From contig PQAM01000010.1 in NCBI GenBank assembly GCA_003104975.1, positions 1-64,000 on the forward strand: 64,000 nt of DNA, written 5' to 3'. Both the position numbers and the translations under genes were made by a program. This document shows positions 6,782-59,280 of the stretch, piece after piece. Source of the DNA: Candidatus Methylomirabilota bacterium (lineage in GTDB: Bacteria > Methylomirabilota > Methylomirabilia > Methylomirabilales > Methylomirabilaceae). The notes below the pieces were generated by a model. It was given only the letters and a program-made list of their open reading frames with translations. It was not told the origin of the DNA and searched no databases. Position 1 is the stretch's first letter; each line of letters begins with the position of its first letter.

Positions 6782-8248
6782 CTACCTCCCGAAACCGGCG
6801 CCGATCCCAAGCGTCCGAAAGAAGGTTTCGGCCTTGAGCAGCGTCTCGTCGTACTCTTTGGCCGGCGAGGAATCGGCGACGATCCCTCCGCCGGTCTGAA
6901 AGTAGATCTGTCCGCCCGTGACGACGGCCGTTCGAATGGCGATGTTCAGTTCCATCCCGCCGGAAAACCCGATAAACCCGATTGCGCCGGTATAGAGGCC
7001 GCGGGGGGTCGGCTCCACCTCGTCGATGATTTCCATCGCACGGATCTTGGGGGCGCCGGTGATCGACCCGCCTGGGAAGGTGGCGCGCAGGCAGTCGATC
7101 GGGTCTGTCCCATCCTCCAGGGTCCCCGCGACGATCGAGACCATGTGATGAAGGGTATGGTAGGTCTCGATCGTCTCGAATCGCTCGACATGCACAGAGC
7201 CGACCCGGCAGATCCGCCCCAGATCGTTTCGTTCCAGGTCCACGATCATGACATGCTCGGCACGCTCTTTCGGATCGTAACGAAGGCTCCCGATGATCCG
7301 CGCATCGTCCTCCACGGTCATCCCTCGCGGGCGCGTCCCCTTGATCGGGCAGGTCGAGATGCGGTTCCCCTCAACCAGCAGGAACCGTTCCGGGGAGTTG
7401 GACAGGACCTGGAACGGGCCACAGTGAAGATAGGCCCCGAATGGCGCCGGGAAACGTTTCTGAAGACGCCGGTACAGGGCCCAGGGATCGCCGCCAAACT
7501 GTGTGACGAAGCGCTGCGAGATGTTGGCCTGATAGATATCGCCGGCTGCGATATAGTCCAGGACCCTGTCCAATGCCTGACAGTACTGCGCCTTCGACAT
7601 ATTGCTGTCGAGCGGGGCCGCGATGGGCGACAACTCGGGCGACCTGCCACCGCCTGTCAGCCGCGCATGCGCGATCAGGTCGCGACCCTCGTGCAGCCGC
7701 TCCAGGGCCCGTTGCTCGCGCGCGACGCCCGGCGGCAGCGGCAGGCCGGTGGAGGTGATCAGCATCTCGCGCTTCGCCGGTTCGAACCAGAAGAGCCGGT
7801 CGTAAAAATGGATCACGCAGTCGGGTAGCCTCAGGTCGTCCACCGCGCGCGCCGGCAGCCGTTCGAGGTGGTGTCGGAGGTCGTAGCCGAAGTAGCCGAT
7901 GGCGCCGGCCGTTGGAACGTCTTCGACGGGCGCCAGGTTGCTATATTGCCTGAGGGTCGCCTGAAGATGTTGAAACGGATCGCCTGTGACCCGGTGGCAT
8001 TCGCCACGACGTGAAATGGTGATCTCGTTGCCCTTTGCCGAAAAGGTGAGGAATGGATCGTAGCCGAAACAGGCGGCCTGCCAGTGATTCACAGCCCAGG
8101 GATCGGCGTCCAGAAGGCTGAAGCCCGGCTGCGCAGCGACCAGACTCCAGAGATCCGCAAAGGGCGGCGGATTGGGGACCTCCTCTATGAGAACATGCGG
8201 ATCGGTCTGCGAGGTCCCGCGTAGAGCGGCCGGAAACGATAGGATCAT
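6782..8248 (-). CDS. pabB: Aminodeoxychorismate synthase component I
   Basis: It aminates chorismate to 4-amino-4-deoxychorismate. The chorismate-binding domain fills the C-terminal half: CPIKGTRPRG, the metal-binding HVMIVDLERNDLGRIC, TFPGGSITGAPKIRAMEII, and the final GGGIVADSSPAKEYDETLLK. A start at 8248 (MILSFPAALRG) is preferred because the longer frame begins inside heptanucleotide repeats; GGAGG lies about ten bases upstream. PIKGT is the PabB signature (anthranilate synthases have PIAGT). No pabA glutaminase is adjacent; a shared TrpG/PabA may serve. Confidence 0.93.
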   Translation of the reverse strand: MILSFPAALRGTSQTDPHVLIEEVPNPPPFADLWSLVAAQPGFSLLDADPWAVNHWQAACFGYDPFLTFSAKGNEITISRRGECHRVTGDPFQHLQATLRQYSNLAPVEDVPTAGAIGYFGYDLRHHLERLPARAVDDLRLPDCVIHFYDRLFWFEPAKREMLITSTGLPLPPGVAREQRALERLHEGRDLIAHARLTGGGRSPELSPIAAPLDSNMSKAQYCQALDRVLDYIAAGDIYQANISQRFVTQFGGDPWALYRRLQKRFPAPFGAYLHCGPFQVLSNSPERFLLVEGNRISTCPIKGTRPRGMTVEDDARIIGSLRYDPKERAEHVMIVDLERNDLGRICRVGSVHVERFETIETYHTLHHMVSIVAGTLEDGTDPIDCLRATFPGGSITGAPKIRAMEIIDEVEPTPRGLYTGAIGFIGFSGGMELNIAIRTAVVTGGQIYFQTGGGIVADSSPAKEYDETLLKAETFFRTLGIGAGFGR

Positions 8249-9132
8249 CCCTTGCGGCCCTCCAACTTCCCAACCCCCAACCCCCAACCCCCAACCCCCG
8301 TCTTATGTTCATCCCAGAGGATCTTATGGCCGTCAAAGACCGGCCCATCTTTGCAGACCAGACGATAAGCGCGCTCCTGTTTATGTGCCGTTACCGGCAC
8401 AACACAGCCCATACAGGCTCCGAACCCACAGGCCATATTCGCCTCCATAGAGGCGTGATAGGGCAGGTCGTACTGTTCGGCAATCGGCGCCAGTGCTGCC
8501 AGCATGGGGTAGGGACCGCAGGCATAGAGGCGGGTGTTGGGTGTTGGGTGTTGGGTGTAGAGGTAGTGCTTGAGCAGGTCGGTGACCAAACCTTCATGGC
8601 CGGCACTGCCGTCTTCGGTGGCCACGTGGACGGCGGCGCCGGCCCGTCGAAGGTCTGAGACGCACAGCAGATCGACCTTGGATCGCCCGCCGAGCAGGAC
8701 CGTCACCGCGATCCGACGGTCAGCCATCCGTCCGGCGAGAGCATCGACAAGGGCAGCGATCGGTGGGACCCCAACGCCGCCGGCAACCAGGATAACGTGC
8801 GCTACTTTTCGCGGAACCTCAAAGCCATTTCCAAGCGGACCGGTTGCCCGGAGCGACCTACCCGGTCGCATCGCAGCGAGACGTGCGGTGCCTCGGCCAC
8901 AGACTTTGTAAAGGATTTCCACCTCGGCAAACCCCTCTCCACGTCTCGCGCGGCGGATGCTCATGGCCCGAGGCAGCAACGGATCGAGTCCGTCGGTCCA
9001 TCCGAGCATCAGAAACTGTCCGGGGAGAAATCGTGCCAGGCGTACAGGACCGGCCAAGCGCATCGAAAAGTATTCCGGCGCGATCTGTTTGTTGGCCACG
9101 ATCTCAACGTGGAACTCGGACGACACCACCAT
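8245..9132 (-). CDS. pyrK: Dihydroorotate dehydrogenase electron-transfer subunit
   Basis: This FAD and 2Fe-2S protein carries electrons from PyrD to NAD. The FAD domain has PRAMSIRR and LPGQFLML, and the NAD domain begins HVILVAGGVGVPPIAAL. The cluster cysteines are MACGFGACMGCVVPV followed by VCKDGPVF. Two stretches are made of heptanucleotide repeats: an insert near residues 192-201 (YTQHPTPNTR) and the C-terminal tail GVGGWGLGVGKLEG, which overlaps the start of pabB by four bases. The insert sits just before the conserved YACGPYPM strand. Confidence 0.94.
   Translation of the reverse strand: MVVSSEFHVEIVANKQIAPEYFSMRLAGPVRLARFLPGQFLMLGWTDGLDPLLPRAMSIRRARRGEGFAEVEILYKVCGRGTARLAAMRPGRSLRATGPLGNGFEVPRKVAHVILVAGGVGVPPIAALVDALAGRMADRRIAVTVLLGGRSKVDLLCVSDLRRAGAAVHVATEDGSAGHEGLVTDLLKHYLYTQHPTPNTRLYACGPYPMLAALAPIAEQYDLPYHASMEANMACGFGACMGCVVPVTAHKQERAYRLVCKDGPVFDGHKILWDEHKTGVGGWGLGVGKLEGRKG
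8268..8299. repeat. Heptanucleotide tandem repeat (CCCCCAA units)
   Basis: About four copies of the heptamer CCCCCAA lie at the junction of pyrK and pabB. On the minus strand they read GGGGGTT and encode the Gly-rich tail of PyrK. They belong to the family of heptamer tracts described at 8530, 9134, 13657, 15561, 43668 and 57061. Confidence 0.9.
8530..8559. repeat. Heptanucleotide tandem repeat (GGGTGTT units) inside pyrK
   Basis: Four copies of GGGTGTT (plus strand) lie within the pyrK coding region and encode residues TQHPTPNT on the minus strand. The reading frame is kept across the tract and the conserved PyrK motifs resume directly after it. Confidence 0.9.
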
Positions 9133-9133
9133 T

Positions 9134-9151
9134 CCCTATACCCTGCACCCT

Positions 9152-9168
<17 letters not shown>
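9134..9168. repeat. Five degenerate heptamers of the form CCCTNNA/CCCTGGA
   Basis: The tract reads CCCTATA, CCCTGCA, CCCTCTA, CCCTCCA, CCCTGGA: five heptamers in perfect register with a fixed CCCT and varied last bases. It spans the carB stop codon and the short carB-pyrK gap. The strict seven-base spacing with changing content is the hallmark of this repeat family. Confidence 0.9.
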
Positions 9169-41859: not shown

Positions 41860-44433
41860 GTGCGTAGCTTCCGACAGGCGATGGTGGATGAGATTCTGCC
41901 CAAGGTCAGTAAACCGTCCCGCTATATCGGAATGGAGTGGAACGCCGTCACGAAAGACCCCGCCACGGCATCCGTCAGGATCGCGCTCGCCTTCCCCGAT
42001 ACCTACGAAATCGGGATGTCCCATCTGGGCCTGAAGATCCTGTACCAGATCCTCAACCGGCGGCCGGAGTTCATGGCCGAACGGGTCTATGCCCCCTGGA
42101 CCGATGCGGAGGCGCTCCTGCGGCAGCATCGGATCCCGCTGTGCAGCCTCGAGTCCGGCTATAGCCTGGCCGACTTTGATCTGATCGGCTTTACACTCCA
42201 GTACGAACTGTCGTACACCAACATCCTGAACATGCTGGACCTGGCCGGTATCCCGTTGACGAGTGCCGAGCGGCGAGAGGGCGATCCGTTCGTCATCGGG
42301 GGCGGCTCGGTCGGCTTCAATCCCGAGCCGATCGCCGAGTTTTTCGACCTGTTCGTCCTGGGCGACGGCGAGGAGGTGGTTCTTGAGATCTGCGAGGCGG
42401 CGGCTGCGTGGAAGGGGTCGGGCGGGCGGCGTGAGGCGCTCCTGGAGGCATGGGCGCGAATCCCGGGCTGCTATGTCCCGGCGCTCCACCAGGGTGAGAC
42501 GATCCGGAAGCGGACGGCGATCCATCTCGATGGGATCGACTACGGCGCCTTCCCGGTCCCCTTCATGGAGATCGTCCACGACCGCGTAAGCATCGAGGTG
42601 ATGCGGGGCTGTACGCAGGGGTGCCGGTTCTGTCAGGCAGGGTATCTGTATCGGCCGCTGCGGGAACGGTCGGCCGAGGAGATCCGGGCGCTGGCCGCGC
42701 AGGCGGTCCGGCAGACCGGCTACGAGGAGGTATCGCTCGCCTCATTGAGCATCGCCGATCTGACAGTCCTTCCGGACGTGGTGCCGTCGCTGATGGATCA
42801 GCTTACGCCGGAGAAGATCTCGCTGTCGCTCCCCTCCCTGCGGGTGGAAACCCTCAACCGATTCCCACAGGTGGCCGAGGAGATCAGTCGGGTCCGCAAG
42901 ACCGGTTTTACCATTGCGCCGGAGGCCGGCAGCCGTCGGCTGCGGAAGGTCATCAATAAGGAGGGGTTCGACGAGGAGCAGATCTTTACGGCGGTGCGGA
43001 ACGCCGCGAAATCAGGCTGGGAATCGGTCAAGTTCTATTTCATGATCGGGCTCCCCACCGAAACGCAAGAGGATCTGGACGAGCTGGTGCGCATCACGCG
43101 GGAATCGGCGCGGATCGCGCGGGCCGAGTCTGCGCGAGGGTTTGGCCTGACCGTCAGCACCTCGCCATTTGTGCCGAAGCCCCATACCCCCTTTCAGTGG
43201 TTTGCCCAGGACCCGATGGAGCTGCTTCAGGAAAAGCAGGAGTTCCTGAAGCGGAAATTACGGGAGGTGCGGGTCTCGTACAAGTGGCACAACGTCCGAT
43301 CCTCGTTTCTGGAGGCGGTCTTTTCGCTGGGCGACCGGTCGCTCGGTCCGGCCATCCGGCGCGGTTATGAGCTGGGCTGCCGCCTTGACGGCTGGACCGA
43401 GCATCTCAAGTTCGACCGGTGGATGCAGGCATTTGACGAGACCGGAATCGATCCGAAGGCGATTGCCAATCGGCCGCGCAACCCGGATGAGCCGCTACCG
43501 TGGGATCACATCGACACCGGCGTCACCAAGGCGTTTCTGCAGCGCGAGTACAAGAAGGCGTTGGAGGCCCGCACAACGGTCGATTGCCACACCTCGACCT
43601 GTACCGCCTGCGGCGAGATCTGTATGCCCAACTGGCCCGCCTGGGCGGAGCAGGTGGGAATGGACATCGGCAGGCGGCAGGCGGCAGGCGGAAGGTGTGG
43701 GGCTAACCCCCAGCCCCCAACCCCCAACCCCCAGCCCATCCAGCGCCTCCGGTTCGTCTTTCAGAAGGTCGGGATGCTGCGGTTTCTGTCGCACCTGGAG
43801 GTGATGCGGGCGCTGAGTCGAGCGTTGCGGCGGGCCGGGATCGCCGTAGCCTACTCGCAGGGATTCAACCCTCAGCCGAAGCTGTCGCTCGCGCTGGCGC
43901 TGCCGGTGGGGGTCGAGGGGCTGGCGGAGTTGGGGGATCTCGAGTTGCGCACAACGATGGCCCCGGAGGAGTTGTCGACGCGGGTCAATCGCTGTCTTGT
44001 GGACGGCCTGCAACTGGTGCGCGCCTGGGAGGTGCCGTTAACGGCGCCGTCGCTCACAACGTCGGTGCGGGAGGGCGCCTATCGTGTGTCGCTGCCACTC
44101 GACGGCATGAGCACAGAGATCGCTGAGCAGTTGAGCGCCCAGGCGCTCTGTGATGCGTGGCTGGATCGGCCCAGCATCGTGGTGAGTGTCGAGCGGAAGG
44201 AGGGGCGAAGGGAGGTCGATGCCCGGCCGCAGATCCTGGGGTTGACGGTGCTCCCCGAAGAGGATGGGGCGCTCTGTTGGGCGCTTCGTCTGCAAACGGG
44301 CCAGGGCGTCGGCGTGCGGCCACAGGCGATCATGACCAGCCTGCTGCGGGAGGCGCCGAACGGGATGTGTGAGGGATGGGAGACGCGGTTACGCGTGGCG
44401 CGGACCGCCCTGATTCTGGATGACAACCGATGA
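41860..44433 (+). CDS. TIGR03960-type radical SAM protein fused to a DUF2344 domain
   Basis: This ~857-aa protein joins a B12-binding-like N-terminal region, a radical SAM core with MRGCTQGCRFCQAGYLYRPLRE (CxxxCxxC), and a C-terminal DUF2344 domain (RLRFVFQKVGMLRFLSHLEV). Such fusions are common next to rng in diverse bacteria, and its reaction is not established. The linker between the two domains (~residues 605-628, RRQAAGGRCGANPQPPTPNP) is encoded by two heptamer tracts. GTG 41860 fits the AAAGGAG spacing best; GTG 41854 and ATG 41881 are alternatives. It overlaps rng by four bases. Confidence 0.88.
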   Translation: MRSFRQAMVDEILPKVSKPSRYIGMEWNAVTKDPATASVRIALAFPDTYEIGMSHLGLKILYQILNRRPEFMAERVYAPWTDAEALLRQHRIPLCSLESGYSLADFDLIGFTLQYELSYTNILNMLDLAGIPLTSAERREGDPFVIGGGSVGFNPEPIAEFFDLFVLGDGEEVVLEICEAAAAWKGSGGRREALLEAWARIPGCYVPALHQGETIRKRTAIHLDGIDYGAFPVPFMEIVHDRVSIEVMRGCTQGCRFCQAGYLYRPLRERSAEEIRALAAQAVRQTGYEEVSLASLSIADLTVLPDVVPSLMDQLTPEKISLSLPSLRVETLNRFPQVAEEISRVRKTGFTIAPEAGSRRLRKVINKEGFDEEQIFTAVRNAAKSGWESVKFYFMIGLPTETQEDLDELVRITRESARIARAESARGFGLTVSTSPFVPKPHTPFQWFAQDPMELLQEKQEFLKRKLREVRVSYKWHNVRSSFLEAVFSLGDRSLGPAIRRGYELGCRLDGWTEHLKFDRWMQAFDETGIDPKAIANRPRNPDEPLPWDHIDTGVTKAFLQREYKKALEARTTVDCHTSTCTACGEICMPNWPAWAEQVGMDIGRRQAAGGRCGANPQPPTPNPQPIQRLRFVFQKVGMLRFLSHLEVMRALSRALRRAGIAVAYSQGFNPQPKLSLALALPVGVEGLAELGDLELRTTMAPEELSTRVNRCLVDGLQLVRAWEVPLTAPSLTTSVREGAYRVSLPLDGMSTEIAEQLSAQALCDAWLDRPSIVVSVERKEGRREVDARPQILGLTVLPEEDGALCWALRLQTGQGVGVRPQAIMTSLLREAPNGMCEGWETRLRVARTALILDDNR
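43668..43738. repeat. Two heptamer tracts (GCAGGCG and CCCCCAA) inside the radical SAM gene
   Basis: Three copies of GCAGGCG (from about 43668) are followed after a short gap by about four copies of CCCCCAA/CCCCCAG (to 43738). They encode the linker between the radical SAM and DUF2344 domains. The G-rich-then-C-rich order makes a potential hairpin, as in the riboswitch loops at 55040 and 57061. Confidence 0.9.
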
Positions 44434-53549: not shown

Positions 53550-53781
53550 TCCTTCAGAAACGGGGCTACCCCAATTGGGATAGCCTACCCCCTAAATCGG
53601 GTGGACAAGGAGGTGCGACAGTTGGCGATATCGTTCATTTCTGGCTGAGGTGGCGTGTAACATATCGGAAATATTCTGAAGGATCATTTGTTGCCATGGC
53701 CGTGAGATTTGGTATCCCCTATGCATGGAATTCGGGCGTAGTCACAATCGAGCTTGTGATCCCAGTAATGGGAAGGAGGCA

Positions 53782-54192
53782 ATGAAAGCGATGATGAAGA
53801 AACTGGGTATTGTTATGATGGCAGGCCTCTTTACCGTCTCCGTGGCCGGTCTCAGTTTTGCCGACGAGAAGGCGGCACCGTCGCCCGCGGTGATCGGGAC
53901 GCCCGCCCTGCCTGATGTGCGCAAGGAAGTAAAAGAGGAGATGAAGAGCATCAAGGGCAAGGCGAAGCAGATGAAGGAGCAGGCGACGACGGCTGTGACA
54001 CCCCCCATCGTGGGGCCGGTTCCGACTGAAACGCCCGCCCTGCCTGATGTGCGCAAGGAAGTAAAAGAGGAGATGAAGAGCATCAAGGGCAAGGCGAAGC
54101 AGATGAAGGAGCAGGCGACGACGGCTGTGACACCCCCCATCGTGGGGCCGGTTCCGACCCCTATACCTCCAGCTTCTGGAGAGAAGAAGTAA
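53782..54192 (+). CDS. Small secreted Lys/Pro-rich protein with an internal 44-residue duplication
   Basis: This 136-aa protein has a signal peptide (MKKLGIVMMAGLFTVSVAGL, cleavage near SFA-DE). The mature part is two identical 44-residue units: TPALPDVRKEVKEEMKSIKG followed by KAKQMKEQATTAVTPPIVGP. Each unit has a charged amphipathic helix and a Pro-rich hinge. I do not know the function. Start follows GGAAGGAGG. It is the first of three tandem paralogues sharing nearly the same signal peptide. Confidence 0.85.
   Translation: MKAMMKKLGIVMMAGLFTVSVAGLSFADEKAAPSPAVIGTPALPDVRKEVKEEMKSIKGKAKQMKEQATTAVTPPIVGPVPTETPALPDVRKEVKEEMKSIKGKAKQMKEQATTAVTPPIVGPVPTPIPPASGEKK
53899..54158 (+). repeat. Perfect 132-bp tandem duplication inside the small secreted protein gene
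   Basis: Bases 53899-54026 and 54031-54158 are identical, with period 132 bp (44 codons). Identity at synonymous positions as well shows the duplication is recent, or is kept identical by recombination. It could expand or contract by slippage. Confidence 0.92.
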
Positions 54193-54840: not shown

Positions 54841-54894
54841 TTTTCTTGACATCGAGGTAGTGTGTAGGATTAGATAAGGCCCGTCTGCTGAAAT

Positions 54895-55150
54895 CGGATG
54901 GGATCTGGGTCCGCCGAACGGCGGAAAACAGGGAAAACGGTGAAGCCCTCAACTTGGTCGGTGTAGGGCCAGGCCGTTGCTGCCCCGCAACTGTAAGCGG
55001 TGTTGAAATCTGCTGAACGCCACTGGTGAAAAAACAGGGTGGAGGGTGTAGCCATAAAACAGCTTTAACCCCCCTACACCCTGCTTTTCACTGGGAAGGC
55101 GCAGAGAGTAAGCTAAGCCGCGAGTCAGGAGACCTGCCCAGCCCTGAGGT
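54895..55150 (+). promoter_or_regulatory. Cobalamin riboswitch upstream of cobQ
   Basis: Conserved elements appear in order: ACAGGGAAAACGGTGAAGCC, CTGCCCCGCAACTGTAAGCGG, GCCACTGG, CACTGGGAAGGCG and the B12 box GAGTCAGGAGACCTGCC. The loop between GCCACTGG and CACTGGGAAGG is enlarged and holds AGGGTGGAGGGTGTAG facing CCCCTACACCCTGC, an added hairpin made of heptamer-like units. A terminator hairpin follows at 55234, so control is probably transcriptional. Confidence 0.95.
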
Positions 55151-55233
55151 GCTGATCACCTTCCGAGGGGAAGGGCGGCCTTGTCGCGTATCGGTTTGAT
55201 TGCGGCGCAGGTATAGCGCTCGGTGTGGGTATA

Positions 55234-55272
55234 ACAACCCCAATCCTCTTCGGAGGATTGGGGTTGTTTGTT
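55234..55272 (+). terminator. Terminator hairpin of the cobQ riboswitch (expression platform)
   Basis: ACAACCCCAATCCTC-TTCG-GAGGATTGGGGTTGT forms a perfect 15-bp stem with a UUCG tetraloop, followed by TTGTTGTGG. The T-rich tail is short and interrupted. Its place, between the B12 aptamer and cobQ, fits the switched terminator. Confidence 0.82.
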
Positions 55273-55289
55273 GTGGAGGAGAGGTCTAC

Positions 55290-55334
55290 ATGCGATCAGC
55301 CTTCCATCCATTCGCGCTCAGCAGCCATGGGTAG
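55290..55334 (+). CDS. Possible 14-codon leader ORF overlapping the cobQ start
   Basis: ATG at 55290 has a strong GGAGGAG eight bases upstream, whereas the cobQ ATG (55327) has none. The frame MRSAFHPFALSSHG stops at 55332, five bases past the cobQ start. Ribosomes ending here could restart on cobQ. Alternatively a frameshift error hides a longer CobQ N-terminus. Confidence 0.35.
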   Translation: MRSAFHPFALSSHG

Positions 55335-56898
55335 ACGTGCTCAGGCGATTGCAGTGTTGGGAACCGGGTCTGACGTCGGCAAGAGTGTTATCGTCGCCGG
55401 CCTCTGCCGTCTGCTGCATCGAGCAGGGGTTCGAGTGGCTCCCTTCAAAGCCCAGAACATGTCCTTGAACTCCTTCGTCACCGTCGAGGGAGGGGAGATG
55501 GGGCGGGCGCAGGTCCTGCAGGCCTATGCCTGTGGCCTGGTTCCGCATGTGGACATGAACCCGATCCTCCTCAAGCCCGAGGCGGACGATCGCTCGCAGG
55601 TCATCCTGTATGGGAAGGTCCTGGGCAGCCATGACGCCGGAGGCTACTTTACCCGCACCAGGGAGTTGTTCCGCTTCGTGAGGGCGAGCTATGAGCGCCT
55701 GGCCAGCCAGTACGAAGTCATCGTGGTCGAGGGGGCGGGGAGTGCCGCCGAGATGAACCTCCGCGACCGGGATCTGGTCAACTGGCCGGTGGCCGAACTG
55801 GCAGACGCGGGGGTCGTGCTGGTGGCTGACATCGACCGGGGTGGGGTCTTCGCCCAGGTGATCGGCACCCTGGATCTACTCTCCGCCGACGAGCGTGAGC
55901 GGCTGGTGGGGGTGATCGTGAACAAGTTCCGAGGTGACACTCGCCTGTTCGCGGACGGGGTTGCCTTTCTGGAAGCCCGCACGGATCTCCCAGTCCTGGG
56001 AGTCCTCCCCTTCCTGCGCGATCTGGAGCTGGATCAGGAGGATAGCGTTGAAGTGGAGCGGTACAGGCACACACGCTTTACCTCCCAAGGCGTGAACGTA
56101 GCGGTGACGCTGCTGCCACGGATGAGCAACTTCACCGATTTCAATGCCCTCGCCGCCGAGGGCGACGTGGCCTTGCGCTACGCGGCTTCACCTCGGGATA
56201 TCCAAGGGGCAGACGTTGTGGTGCTTCCCGGGAGTAAGAACACGATCGCCGACTTGGAGCACCTGCGCCGTGCCGGTTTTGACGAGGCCCTGATGGCGCA
56301 TGTGGATCGTGGAGGGGAGCTGGTGGGGATCTGCGGCGGCTATCAGATGCTCGGCCGTGTGATCGCTGACCCGCATGGTGTGGAGGCAGGTGGGCGGATG
56401 CAGGGTCTGGGGTTACTGGACGTAATCACTGAACTGCGGCCGCACAAGCGGACAGTGCAGATCGAGGCGCTTGCACTTCACGTAGAAGCGTTGCCGGACA
56501 GCATAGTTTCGGGGTACGAGATCCACATGGGTGTGACCCGCCGCGAGACCGCCATGCCCTGCTTCCGTATTCTGCGCCGCATTGGGCAGGCGGGTCCGGG
56601 AGGAGATCCCGCTTGGCAGGAGGAGCAAGAGGCTCTGGATGGCGCGATCCGTCAGGACCGACTCGTGTGGGGAACCTATATCCACGGCCTCTTCGACCGA
56701 CCGGGCTTTCGCCGCCTGTGGCTCAACCGGCTTCGTGAGCGAAAGGGCCTGCCGCAGCTTGACACTGTGGTGTCAGAGGCCGTCGCGGCACGGCTGGCCT
56801 CCGCGCTCGATTGCTGGGCCGACCACATGGCGCAGCACGTAGATGTGGGTCGGATCTTCGCTGCGGTGGGGGTGGGCAAGGCGCTTGAAAGGGGGTGA
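55327..56898 (+). CDS. cobQ: Cobyric acid synthase
   Basis: CobQ amidates four side chains of adenosylcobyrinic diamide with glutamine and ATP. The 523-aa protein has the P-loop-like AIAVLGTGSDVGKSVIVAGL, FKAQNMSLNSFVTVEGGEMGRAQ, VEGAGSAAEMNLRDRDLVN, and the glutaminase-like domain with ELVGICGGYQMLGR (nucleophile Cys) and a final His in WGTYIHGLFD. It is controlled by the upstream cobalamin riboswitch. No other cob gene is in the window. Confidence 0.95.
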   Translation: MGRRAQAIAVLGTGSDVGKSVIVAGLCRLLHRAGVRVAPFKAQNMSLNSFVTVEGGEMGRAQVLQAYACGLVPHVDMNPILLKPEADDRSQVILYGKVLGSHDAGGYFTRTRELFRFVRASYERLASQYEVIVVEGAGSAAEMNLRDRDLVNWPVAELADAGVVLVADIDRGGVFAQVIGTLDLLSADERERLVGVIVNKFRGDTRLFADGVAFLEARTDLPVLGVLPFLRDLELDQEDSVEVERYRHTRFTSQGVNVAVTLLPRMSNFTDFNALAAEGDVALRYAASPRDIQGADVVVLPGSKNTIADLEHLRRAGFDEALMAHVDRGGELVGICGGYQMLGRVIADPHGVEAGGRMQGLGLLDVITELRPHKRTVQIEALALHVEALPDSIVSGYEIHMGVTRRETAMPCFRILRRIGQAGPGGDPAWQEEQEALDGAIRQDRLVWGTYIHGLFDRPGFRRLWLNRLRERKGLPQLDTVVSEAVAARLASALDCWADHMAQHVDVGRIFAAVGVGKALERG

Positions 56899-57060
56899 GA
56901 GGAGACCGCACGATCAGAGATCTATTCGGAGTGAATTGAGCGCCCCTGGATGTAAGGGAAGCTGGTGGGTCATACCGCATAGCGCGGTTGGACAAAGCCA
57001 GCACGGTCCCGCCACTGTAAGTGGGGAGTCGCTCTGCACAATGCCACTGGCGTAAAAGCA

Positions 57061-57095
57061 GGGATTAGGGATTAGGGGTTAGGGTTTAGGGAACA
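57061..57095 (+). repeat. Five GGGNNNN heptamers in the riboswitch peripheral arm
   Basis: The RNA-sense strand reads GGGATTA, GGGATTA, GGGGTTA, GGGTTTA, GGGAACA and then GG. The spacing of GGG runs (four-base loops) meets the G-quadruplex pattern. The tract lies on the 5' side of the enlarged loop of the btuB riboswitch. Confidence 0.93.
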
Positions 57096-57115
57096 GGAAG
57101 AGGATATAAGCTTTT

Positions 57116-57143
57116 CCCGGCCCCCAACCCCCATCGCCCATCC
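57116..57143 (+). repeat. Four CCCNNNN heptamers facing the G-rich arm
   Basis: The units are CCCGGCC, CCCAACC, CCCATCG and CCCATCC, followed by CCTGC. They lie on the 3' side of the same riboswitch loop and can pair with the G-rich heptamers. GCAGGG at 57057 and CCCTGC at 57142 close the arm. Confidence 0.85.
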
Positions 57144-57246
57144 CCTGCTTTTCACTGGGAAGGCGCAGGGCCGGCAACGATCCACGAGTCAGGAGACCTA
57201 TCCAGGGGAAAACGAGAACGTACCACCTTCGCGGATAAGGGGACGA

Positions 57247-59280
57247 ATGATGATACGTTGGAGCGGTGTAGTCACGGCATGGCTGTGTGTGGCGATCTTG
57301 TGGTTCTGTGGACAGGGGAGTGCGTCGGGACAGATGCTCGGATTGGTTTCTGAAGAGGCGGTAGAGCTGGGGCCGGTGGTGGTGACGGCGACCAAGACCG
57401 AAGTCCCCGTGAAACAGGTGGCGGCGTCGGTTACCGTGATTACAAAGGAGGAGATCGAAGCGCGTCAGGTGACCCAGGTGTCGGATCTGCTCCGGGATGT
57501 TCCGGGCTTGAGCGTCAGGCAGCAAAGCAGCCGCGGCAGCATCGTGAGTATTTTTCCAAGAGGCGGCAACTCCAATTTCAATCTGGTGTTGATTGATGGG
57601 GTGAAGGTCAACGATGCTGGCGGCGCCTACGACTTTGGTGACTTCAGCACCGATAACATCGAGCGCATCGAAATTGTCCGAGGTCCCCACAGCGGGCTCT
57701 ACGGCTCCGATGCTATGGGGTCGGTGATCCAGATCTTTACCAAGCGAGGCAAAGGGACGCCACGGGTCGAGGCCTCGTTTGGGGGCGGGAATCTGAAGAC
57801 GTTTGAAGAGAAACTGAATCTCAGCGGGGGGGCGGGGCAGCTGGACTACTCGTTAGGGGTGGGACGAAGCGATACTGATGGGCACCTCCGCCTCAATAAT
57901 CACTTTGGCGTCACAACGGTAACCAGCCGTGTCGGTTTTACGCTTGAGAAAACGTTGGATCTGGGTCTTACCGTCCGATACACAGACAGCGATCTCAATT
58001 TTCCCACCCAGACCGGTGGCGATCGGTTCGGCGTGCTTGATCCAAACCAATCCAGCCACCAGCAACGGCTGGTTGTCAGCGGCAAAGCCGGCCACTCGCT
58101 GACACCATGGTGGCAGCAGACGCTGCAACTCGGCTGGTACCGGCGCAACTTTGCGTTCGATGATCAGTTCGATCCAGTGGATCCCCGCACTGGGGAACTC
58201 GTCGATTTCTCTGCCTTCCACAGCAAGAGCGAAGAGCGTCGGTTCTCCCTCGATTACTCCTGGAATCTGACTGCTCCCACCGTGCTGGATGTCTCCAGCC
58301 TCCTGACCGTCGGCTTTGCCTTCGAGCGCGAGGAGTTCGATCAGCGGGCCGCCGCTACCGAGACCGATTTTCCTTTTGCAAGCGCGAACGAGGCCACGCG
58401 GGACAATAAAGCCGGCTATCTCCAGGGCCAGCTCGACTGGAGGAAGCAGCTTTTCCTGACGGCGGGATTCCGGGTTGACGGCAACAGCACCTTCGGGACT
58501 GAGGTGACGCCAAGAGTTTCGGTAGCGTGGATTATGCCGTATGTGGGGACCAAGCTGAGGGGTGGGTACGGAGAGGGGATCAAGGAGCCGAGTTTCATTG
58601 AGAATTTCGGCGACGGGAGTCAGTTTGTCGTCGGCAATCCCGACTTGCAACCGGAGCGCTCCAGGAGCTGGGAGGTCGGGCTGGACCAGCCGCTGCTTCA
58701 GGGTCTGGCCGATGTCTCAGTGACGTACTTTCACAACCGTTTCAGCGACCTGATCGCCTTCATTTTCAGCCCCACGCCCGGCTGTGCGGCCAGCTTCTGT
58801 AACGTCCAGAAAGCGAAGGCGGAAGGGGTCGAGTTGGCTGCGACCATCCGCCCAGGGTACGGCCTGACTATCGGCGGCGCCTACACCTTCCTGGATACGA
58901 AAGTACTCGACGATGGCGGCATCGACTCCGTCGCGCTGCGGGAGGGTAAGCGGCTGCTCCGCCGACCCAGGCACGCCGGGAATCTTTCCATTGACTACGT
59001 ATGGGATCGCCTGCATACGAGCCTGACGACCACGTTTGTCGGTGACCGGCCGGATATCTTCACCGATCCGGCTACCTTTGTCACCAGGCGGGTGACCGCA
59101 GAGGGCTACACGACTGTGGACCTGGCAGGCTCGTATCTCCTGTTGAAGGACGCCCGCCATCTGCGGGAGCTCACACTGTTCGGAAGAATCCAGAATCTCT
59201 TCAATCGGAATTACCAGCAGGTCGCCGGCTTTTCGGCGCCGGGCATCACCTGGTTGTTCGGCCTGAAGGGCAGCCTATGA
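57247..59280 (+). CDS. btuB: TonB-dependent outer-membrane receptor for cobalamin (BtuB-like)
   Basis: It imports corrinoids across the outer membrane using TonB energy. The 677-aa protein has a signal peptide (to about GSASG-Q), a TonB box region (ELGPVVVTATKTE), the plug domain (VSDLLRDVPGLSVRQ, VLIDGVKVND, IERIEIVRGPHSGLYGSDAMG) and a 22-strand-type barrel ending in NYQQVAGFSAPGITWLFGLKG. The B12 riboswitch upstream and btuFCD downstream support the substrate. Its TGA overlaps the btuF ATG. Confidence 0.93.
   Translation: MMIRWSGVVTAWLCVAILWFCGQGSASGQMLGLVSEEAVELGPVVVTATKTEVPVKQVAASVTVITKEEIEARQVTQVSDLLRDVPGLSVRQQSSRGSIVSIFPRGGNSNFNLVLIDGVKVNDAGGAYDFGDFSTDNIERIEIVRGPHSGLYGSDAMGSVIQIFTKRGKGTPRVEASFGGGNLKTFEEKLNLSGGAGQLDYSLGVGRSDTDGHLRLNNHFGVTTVTSRVGFTLEKTLDLGLTVRYTDSDLNFPTQTGGDRFGVLDPNQSSHQQRLVVSGKAGHSLTPWWQQTLQLGWYRRNFAFDDQFDPVDPRTGELVDFSAFHSKSEERRFSLDYSWNLTAPTVLDVSSLLTVGFAFEREEFDQRAAATETDFPFASANEATRDNKAGYLQGQLDWRKQLFLTAGFRVDGNSTFGTEVTPRVSVAWIMPYVGTKLRGGYGEGIKEPSFIENFGDGSQFVVGNPDLQPERSRSWEVGLDQPLLQGLADVSVTYFHNRFSDLIAFIFSPTPGCAASFCNVQKAKAEGVELAATIRPGYGLTIGGAYTFLDTKVLDDGGIDSVALREGKRLLRRPRHAGNLSIDYVWDRLHTSLTTTFVGDRPDIFTDPATFVTRRVTAEGYTTVDLAGSYLLLKDARHLRELTLFGRIQNLFNRNYQQVAGFSAPGITWLFGLKGSL

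Follow-up and report, generated by a model that had tools for sequence, protein, structure and literature searches.

The end loop of helix P11 in a predicted cobalamin riboswitch of a Candidatus Methylomirabilota bacterium probably holds one copy of an inverted heptamer repeat that is dispersed through the genome, and that copy forms a long hairpin which the predicted switch tolerates. The dispersed element would be laid out as an outer end (AAAGACAGGGTNTAGGG...), a short centre, and an arm of CCC heptads. Once transcribed, the copy in the P11 end loop would fold into a long imperfect hairpin extending P11 away from the B12-binding core, and the riboswitch would tolerate the element because the hairpin merely lengthens P11 in that direction. 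The arm is probably a structurally neutral passenger, in which a G-quadruplex (G4) may be at most a brief folding intermediate during transcription, replaced as the C arm emerges. Our comparisons show the element family, its position in the loop, the retention in relatives of a heptad hairpin though not of G-tracts, and a predicted fold that is unchanged outside the arm.

The window (the whole stretch of 64,000 nucleotides that was analyzed) contains two cobalamin riboswitches, RS1 and RS2, each followed by a gene for B12 synthesis or uptake:

54890 to 55155, + strand: cobalamin riboswitch RS1 (RF00174, 103.1 bits)
55225 to 56898, + strand: cobQ, cobyric acid synthase, downstream of RS1
56931 to 57219, + strand: cobalamin riboswitch RS2 (RF00174, 77.7 bits, E 2e-17, model positions 1-189)
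57247 to 59280, + strand: gene for a BtuB-like TonB-dependent receptor, downstream of RS2

RS1 lies ~2 kb upstream of RS2, and both exceeded the RF00174 gathering score of 31.5 bits over the full model (1-189) in the covariance model search. The CobQ product surpassed the cut-offs of both NCBIfam NF001989 (620 bits) and TIGR00313 (509 bits). The receptor scored 285 bits against TIGR01779, which is under the cut-off of 599.7, and it matched E. coli BtuB structures at E about 1e-40. Its gene is followed by BtuF-, BtuC- and TonB-like genes, so that both riboswitches are linked to B12 uptake or synthesis. Judged by covariance score and gene linkage, RS2 is a good predicted cobalamin riboswitch, and the sequence-only reading, which had put it before a btuB-like gene, was correct on this point. 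Both RNAs resemble the known RF00174 class with a P7-P11 peripheral arm (E. coli btuB, the S. thermophilum AdoCbl riboswitch) in their full-model match, in their conserved J10/11 and J11/10 flanks, and in having btuB-like and cobQ genes 3' of them. Unlike the usual member, RS2 has a P11 loop with ~100 nt of heptamer arrays instead of a few nucleotides. The arms of the two riboswitches were delimited as follows:

55019 to 55099, + strand: P11 arm of RS1, a short inverted heptamer element, CAGGGTGGAGGGTGTAG ... CTACACCCTG (arm comparison)
57043 to 57163, + strand: P10/P11 segment of RS2, GCCACTGG ... CACTGGGAAGG, 121 nt long (arm comparison)
57061 to 57091, + strand: G arm of RS2, five GGG tracts with a 7-nt period (sequence; Tandem Repeats Finder, period 7)
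57116 to 57145, + strand: C arm of RS2, four CCC tracts of 7-nt period (57116-57139) and a fifth, out-of-register C run (sequence; Tandem Repeats Finder)

The P10/P11 segment of RS2, in which GCCACTGG starts at 57043, compares with ~30 nt in most relatives outside the genus. Its GGG tracts start at 57061, 57068, 57075, 57082 and 57089 and its CCC tracts at 57116, 57123, 57130 and 57137, with about 25 nt between the two arms. Tandem Repeats Finder reported period 7 at 57060-57092 (4.7 copies) and 57121-57145 (3.6 copies). The heptamer arm is thereby confirmed: five GGG units and four CCC units do face each other in exact 7-nt register, as was first noted from the sequence. The likeness to plant telomere repeats that was also proposed is a loose one, the units of the G arm being AGGGATT, AGGGATT, AGGGGTT, AGGGTTT and AGGGAAC. 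The P11 arm of RS1 has fewer than four G3 tracts. We assign the RS2 heptamer arm to the end loop of P11 by position relative to the S. thermophilum AdoCbl riboswitch sequence (GUGCCACUGGCCCGAAGGCCGGGAAGGC, PMC4436661), and the name therefore reflects alignment rather than a solved structure. By the same comparison, the flanks of the arm are the conserved J10/11 and J11/10 segments. Contacts of P10-P11 with J6/3 have been reported (PMC5359240).

Arrays of this type are abundant throughout the genome (3.0 Mb in 19 contigs), which contains 262 matches to four successive G3N4 units. The period-8 control (G3N5, four units) gave 24 matches; it was chosen because the G3N4 pattern is symmetric and its reversal would be useless as a control. 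A 464-kb sample of the genome held 52 such arrays (one of them a poly-C artefact), compared to none in first-order Markov sequence. When high-scoring clusters in this sample were counted by lag from 3 to 15, there were 34 at lag 7, 10 at lag 14 (a multiple of 7), and one or two at each of the others. The RS2 array is thus not a product of chance, since the Markov sequence held no arrays and lag 7 is the sole strong period. Seven-nucleotide G-rich tandem units are both overrepresented and dispersed in this genome, and in the 464-kb sample they take the forms GGGTNTA, GGGATTA, GGGGTTA or GGGGGTT. The GGGNNNN unit is not special to the riboswitch but is the commonest type of heptamer repeat in the genome. 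The sequence-only reading had passed over many further 7-bp arrays in the window and the second cobalamin riboswitch with its shorter, similar arm.

The arrays tend to occur as convergent, mainly intergenic inverted pairs. Their context was scored in sampled stretches, some of which were picked for holding arrays, with genes from a simple codon model whose ends are approximate. The G arm came first in all 15 close array pairs in these stretches. Eleven of the 15 were intergenic, though ~81% of the sample is coding, and all 11 lay between co-directional genes, given the approximate gene ends. RS2 is the eleventh of these pairs; the other 10 occupy short gaps, ≤22 nt from both neighbor genes. 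The outer ends of the dispersed elements have a common flank, AA..(C/T)AGGG, and a flank of this type is present in the RS2 arm too (AAAAGCAGGG ... CCCCTGCTTTT). With the array pairs and the outer flank both shared beyond the riboswitch, the RS2 arm is best regarded as a single member of a family of inverted heptamer arrays scattered over the genome. One further element (L002, 1495-1580) is a chimera, with GGGATTA heptads opposite AACTCNN heptads, and it suggests a gradation between the G-rich and GAGTT families.

Repeats of this class are known from other bacteria. Rehm et al. (2015) described the G-rich heptamer repeats GGGAATC and GGGGA(C/T)T in Xanthomonas and Nostoc, including 70-75 convergent heptamer pairs in Xanthomonas, for which they proposed competition between a stem-loop and a G4 and demonstrated DNA G4s in vitro (PMC4692102). 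Those repeats resemble the ones described here in their 7-nt G-rich units, their mostly intergenic position between co-directional genes, their convergent plus/minus pairs able to form stem-loops, and their G4 potential (PMC4692102). They differ in that they come from another phylum and have the unit GGGAATC or GGGGA(C/T)T, unlike the units of this genome; here, moreover, one pair lies within a riboswitch aptamer arm, and in relatives the same loop has G-free heptads. By its units, the present family appears to be a parallel case of the type of Rehm et al. and not the same sequence family. The elements also resemble REP/REPIN elements with RAYT transposases in being short hairpins dispersed between genes (PMC3116915, PMC2817692), but their arms are built of 7-nt tandem units. 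A profile search of the genome with PF01797 (Y1/RAYT transposase) gave no match, and an origin from a REP/RAYT system was rejected on that ground. The repeat class and the hairpin/G4 competition are already known from Xanthomonas (PMC4692102), and what is less ordinary is the recurrence of such repeats in a P11 loop. Our literature search returned nothing relevant on a riboswitch carrying a dispersed repeat, nor on Methylomirabilis repeats together with a riboswitch.

To follow the loop in relatives, we searched the taxonomic order for cobalamin riboswitches, which gave 56 matches in 30 genomes. Extended, heptad-built P11 arms of at least 90 nt were found in 14 riboswitches. Within the genus these are RS2 of the genome studied here, RS1 of G001 and G007, both riboswitches of G006, G008 and G013, RS2 of G009 and G010, and that of G014; outside it they are those of G015, from another family, and G032, from a third. 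The best lag was 7 in all 14, yet only three (RS2, G007 RS1 and G010 RS2) contained four G3 tracts. The others, such as those of G006, are built of G-run-free AGTGTTN or GAGTTTN heptads; GAGTTNN was considered as a heptad common to every relative and rejected, as the pattern is not general. A further long arm, in G034, is made of octads, in line with a period-8 excess in that genome. Most remaining arms in the order are short hairpins of 24-43 nt (e.g., 24 nt in G010 RS1 and 34 nt in RS2 of G001, G004 and G005) or decayed arms of 49-81 nt (G012, G005, G004 and our own RS1). In G009 RS1 (G009:C22:87134-87298, L226) the whole P10-P11 arm is missing, which amounts to a natural arm deletion. Several of the short arms in the genus consist of CCTGAGCTTGNCGAAGG, a palindrome dispersed in up to 13 copies per genome, or of a sequence close to it. 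These comparisons show that relatives keep a long heptad hairpin in the P11 loop and mostly do not keep the G-tracts.

We also considered growth in place, in which 7-nt slippage would have lengthened both arms of an originally short, G-rich P11 stem and no dispersed element would have inserted. Units are more alike within an arm (identity 0.60) than across arms (0.49), arms of intermediate length exist, and this genome plainly undergoes 7-nt slippage. The identity across arms itself exceeds that of unrelated arms (0.37), and the three values fit slippage within arms atop a common ancestry of both arms. Growth in place does not account for the outer flank that the arm has in common with elements elsewhere, nor for the unrelated palindrome held by the same loop. 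It is also at odds with G013, in which RS1 and RS2 have a common 117-bp perfect match spanning the whole arm while the riboswitch flanks have diverged; the arm was therefore copied from one riboswitch to the other. The common outer flanks and the copying of an entire arm point to insertion or conversion, and we regard growth in place alone as unlikely, if a serious contender.

The sequence-only reading had proposed an RNA G4 in the G tract, in competition with the hairpin, as a means of tuning the riboswitch by potassium, helicase activity or transcription speed. Part of its basis is sound. The tract at 57061-57091 matches G3N4G3N4G3N4G3, with four G3 tracts separated by short loops, and is G4-capable; the G arm is also transcribed before the C arm. 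For similar heptamers, G4s stable in K+ have been obtained with DNA oligonucleotides (PMC4692102). In G4-aware folds of the growing arm, the G4 was the favored state between roughly nt 42 and nt 87 of 121 and was displaced once the second C tract was out, so that a short-lived nascent G4 is possible in this model.

The finished arm was predicted to favor the hairpin. Its predicted energy was −48.4 kcal/mol as a hairpin and −37.1 kcal/mol with the G4 held, ~11 kcal/mol worse, although the G4 parameters of ViennaRNA are rough and such energies rank the states rather than measure them. The corresponding penalties were 29 kcal/mol in G007 and 23 kcal/mol in G010, which makes RS2 the most permissive of the three G4-capable arms in these predictions. 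RS2 also ranked lowest in hairpin character among the extended arms tested (z −2.1, compared to −2.5 for RS1 and −3.0 to −6.3 for orthologous arms); this is because the 4-nt spacers of its two arms mismatch (identity 0.20). In the sequence-only reading, the competing folds lay between CACTGG and CACTGGGAAGG, which must come together for B12 binding. The basal P11 stem of RS2 nevertheless remained paired in the fold with the G4 held, so that these segments could still approach each other, and a G4 would not by itself be expected to part the conserved J10/11 and J11/10 flanks. The whole leader folded at −131.5 kcal/mol with the arm and at −85.5 kcal/mol with a GAAA loop in its place, and the structure elsewhere was identical. 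Given that 11 of the 14 extended arms and our own RS1 are without the necessary tracts, and that G-heptads occur genome-wide, the interpretation as a conserved or functional quadruplex switch is mostly not supported, and we consider it very improbable.

Pure passenger status does not explain why the loop is occupied repeatedly, as random insertion should seldom hit it. If ~150 elements (an upper guess) landed randomly in the ~560 kb of non-coding DNA, ~0.01 would be expected in two 20-nt loops; the genome has two occupied P11 loops, possibly from one event. Of the 12 genus genomes in which a riboswitch was detected, 9 have a long arm. The tree of the genus was built on CarB, since most members lack CobQ or have no clear ortholog of it; it is poorly resolved at the position of our genome, so independent gains inside the genus could not be counted. 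Different dispersed repeats occupy this loop in at least four lineages, since G015, G032 and G034 were occupied independently of the genus. None of the nine TPP riboswitches of the genus was lengthened (104-113 nt), and a general colonization of riboswitch hairpins by repeats was rejected for that reason.

One reading of this recurrence is that a long P11 is itself selected, for RNA stability, slower transcription or as a protein handle, so that any repeat forming a long hairpin suffices. Such selection would agree with the spread of long arms within and beyond the genus, with the normal length of the TPP riboswitches, and with pairing that persists although the sequence has turned over almost completely (z down to −6.3). 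It agrees poorly with the close relatives that have a short arm or none (G010 RS1, G009 RS1, and RS2 of G001, G004 and G005), and the arms have no conserved sequence for a protein; we think it improbable. Tentatively, and with somewhat less than even confidence, we hypothesize that the P11 loop is a recurrent, perhaps preferred, site at which a genome's dispersed hairpin repeats land or grow, in at least four lineages with different families of short tandem repeats and one dispersed palindrome, pairing being kept amid sequence turnover and copying between riboswitches. The recurrence may come from tolerance, from repeats favoring hairpins that are already there, or from selection for a long P11.

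If the dispersed-element reading holds, a regulatory RNA can take up the repetitive DNA of its genome without visible damage, at a loop that accepts anything folding back on itself. The orthologous riboswitches provide natural arm swaps (G-heptads, G-free heptads, octads, palindromes and no arm), a set that would be useful for the contribution of the P7-P11 arm to B12 sensing and for the behavior of G4-capable versus G-free arms. The case also carries a warning: where a G4 motif is seen in a bacterial leader, it can be incidental to a repeat found throughout the genome.

Other repeats in the window lie in or beside coding sequence. Heptad arrays at 8269-8299 and 8532-8555 are translated within a PyrK-like protein (8245-9132, − strand) as a loop, TQHPTPNT, and a C-terminal GVGGWGLGVG; the PyrK-like protein of relatives has other apparently repeat-derived loop peptides (PPFSKGGxGGI, FKVQSSKFQ). 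The short gap between carB and the pyrK-like gene (9134-9164) is a C-heptad array that extends into the end of carB. At 43660-43740, facing heptad arrays of unlike units (CGGCAGG, AACCCCC) lie in the apparent coding sequence of one gene. A 132-bp exact tandem duplication (53899-54158) was observed within a small ORF with a signal-peptide-like start (53725-54192, + strand).
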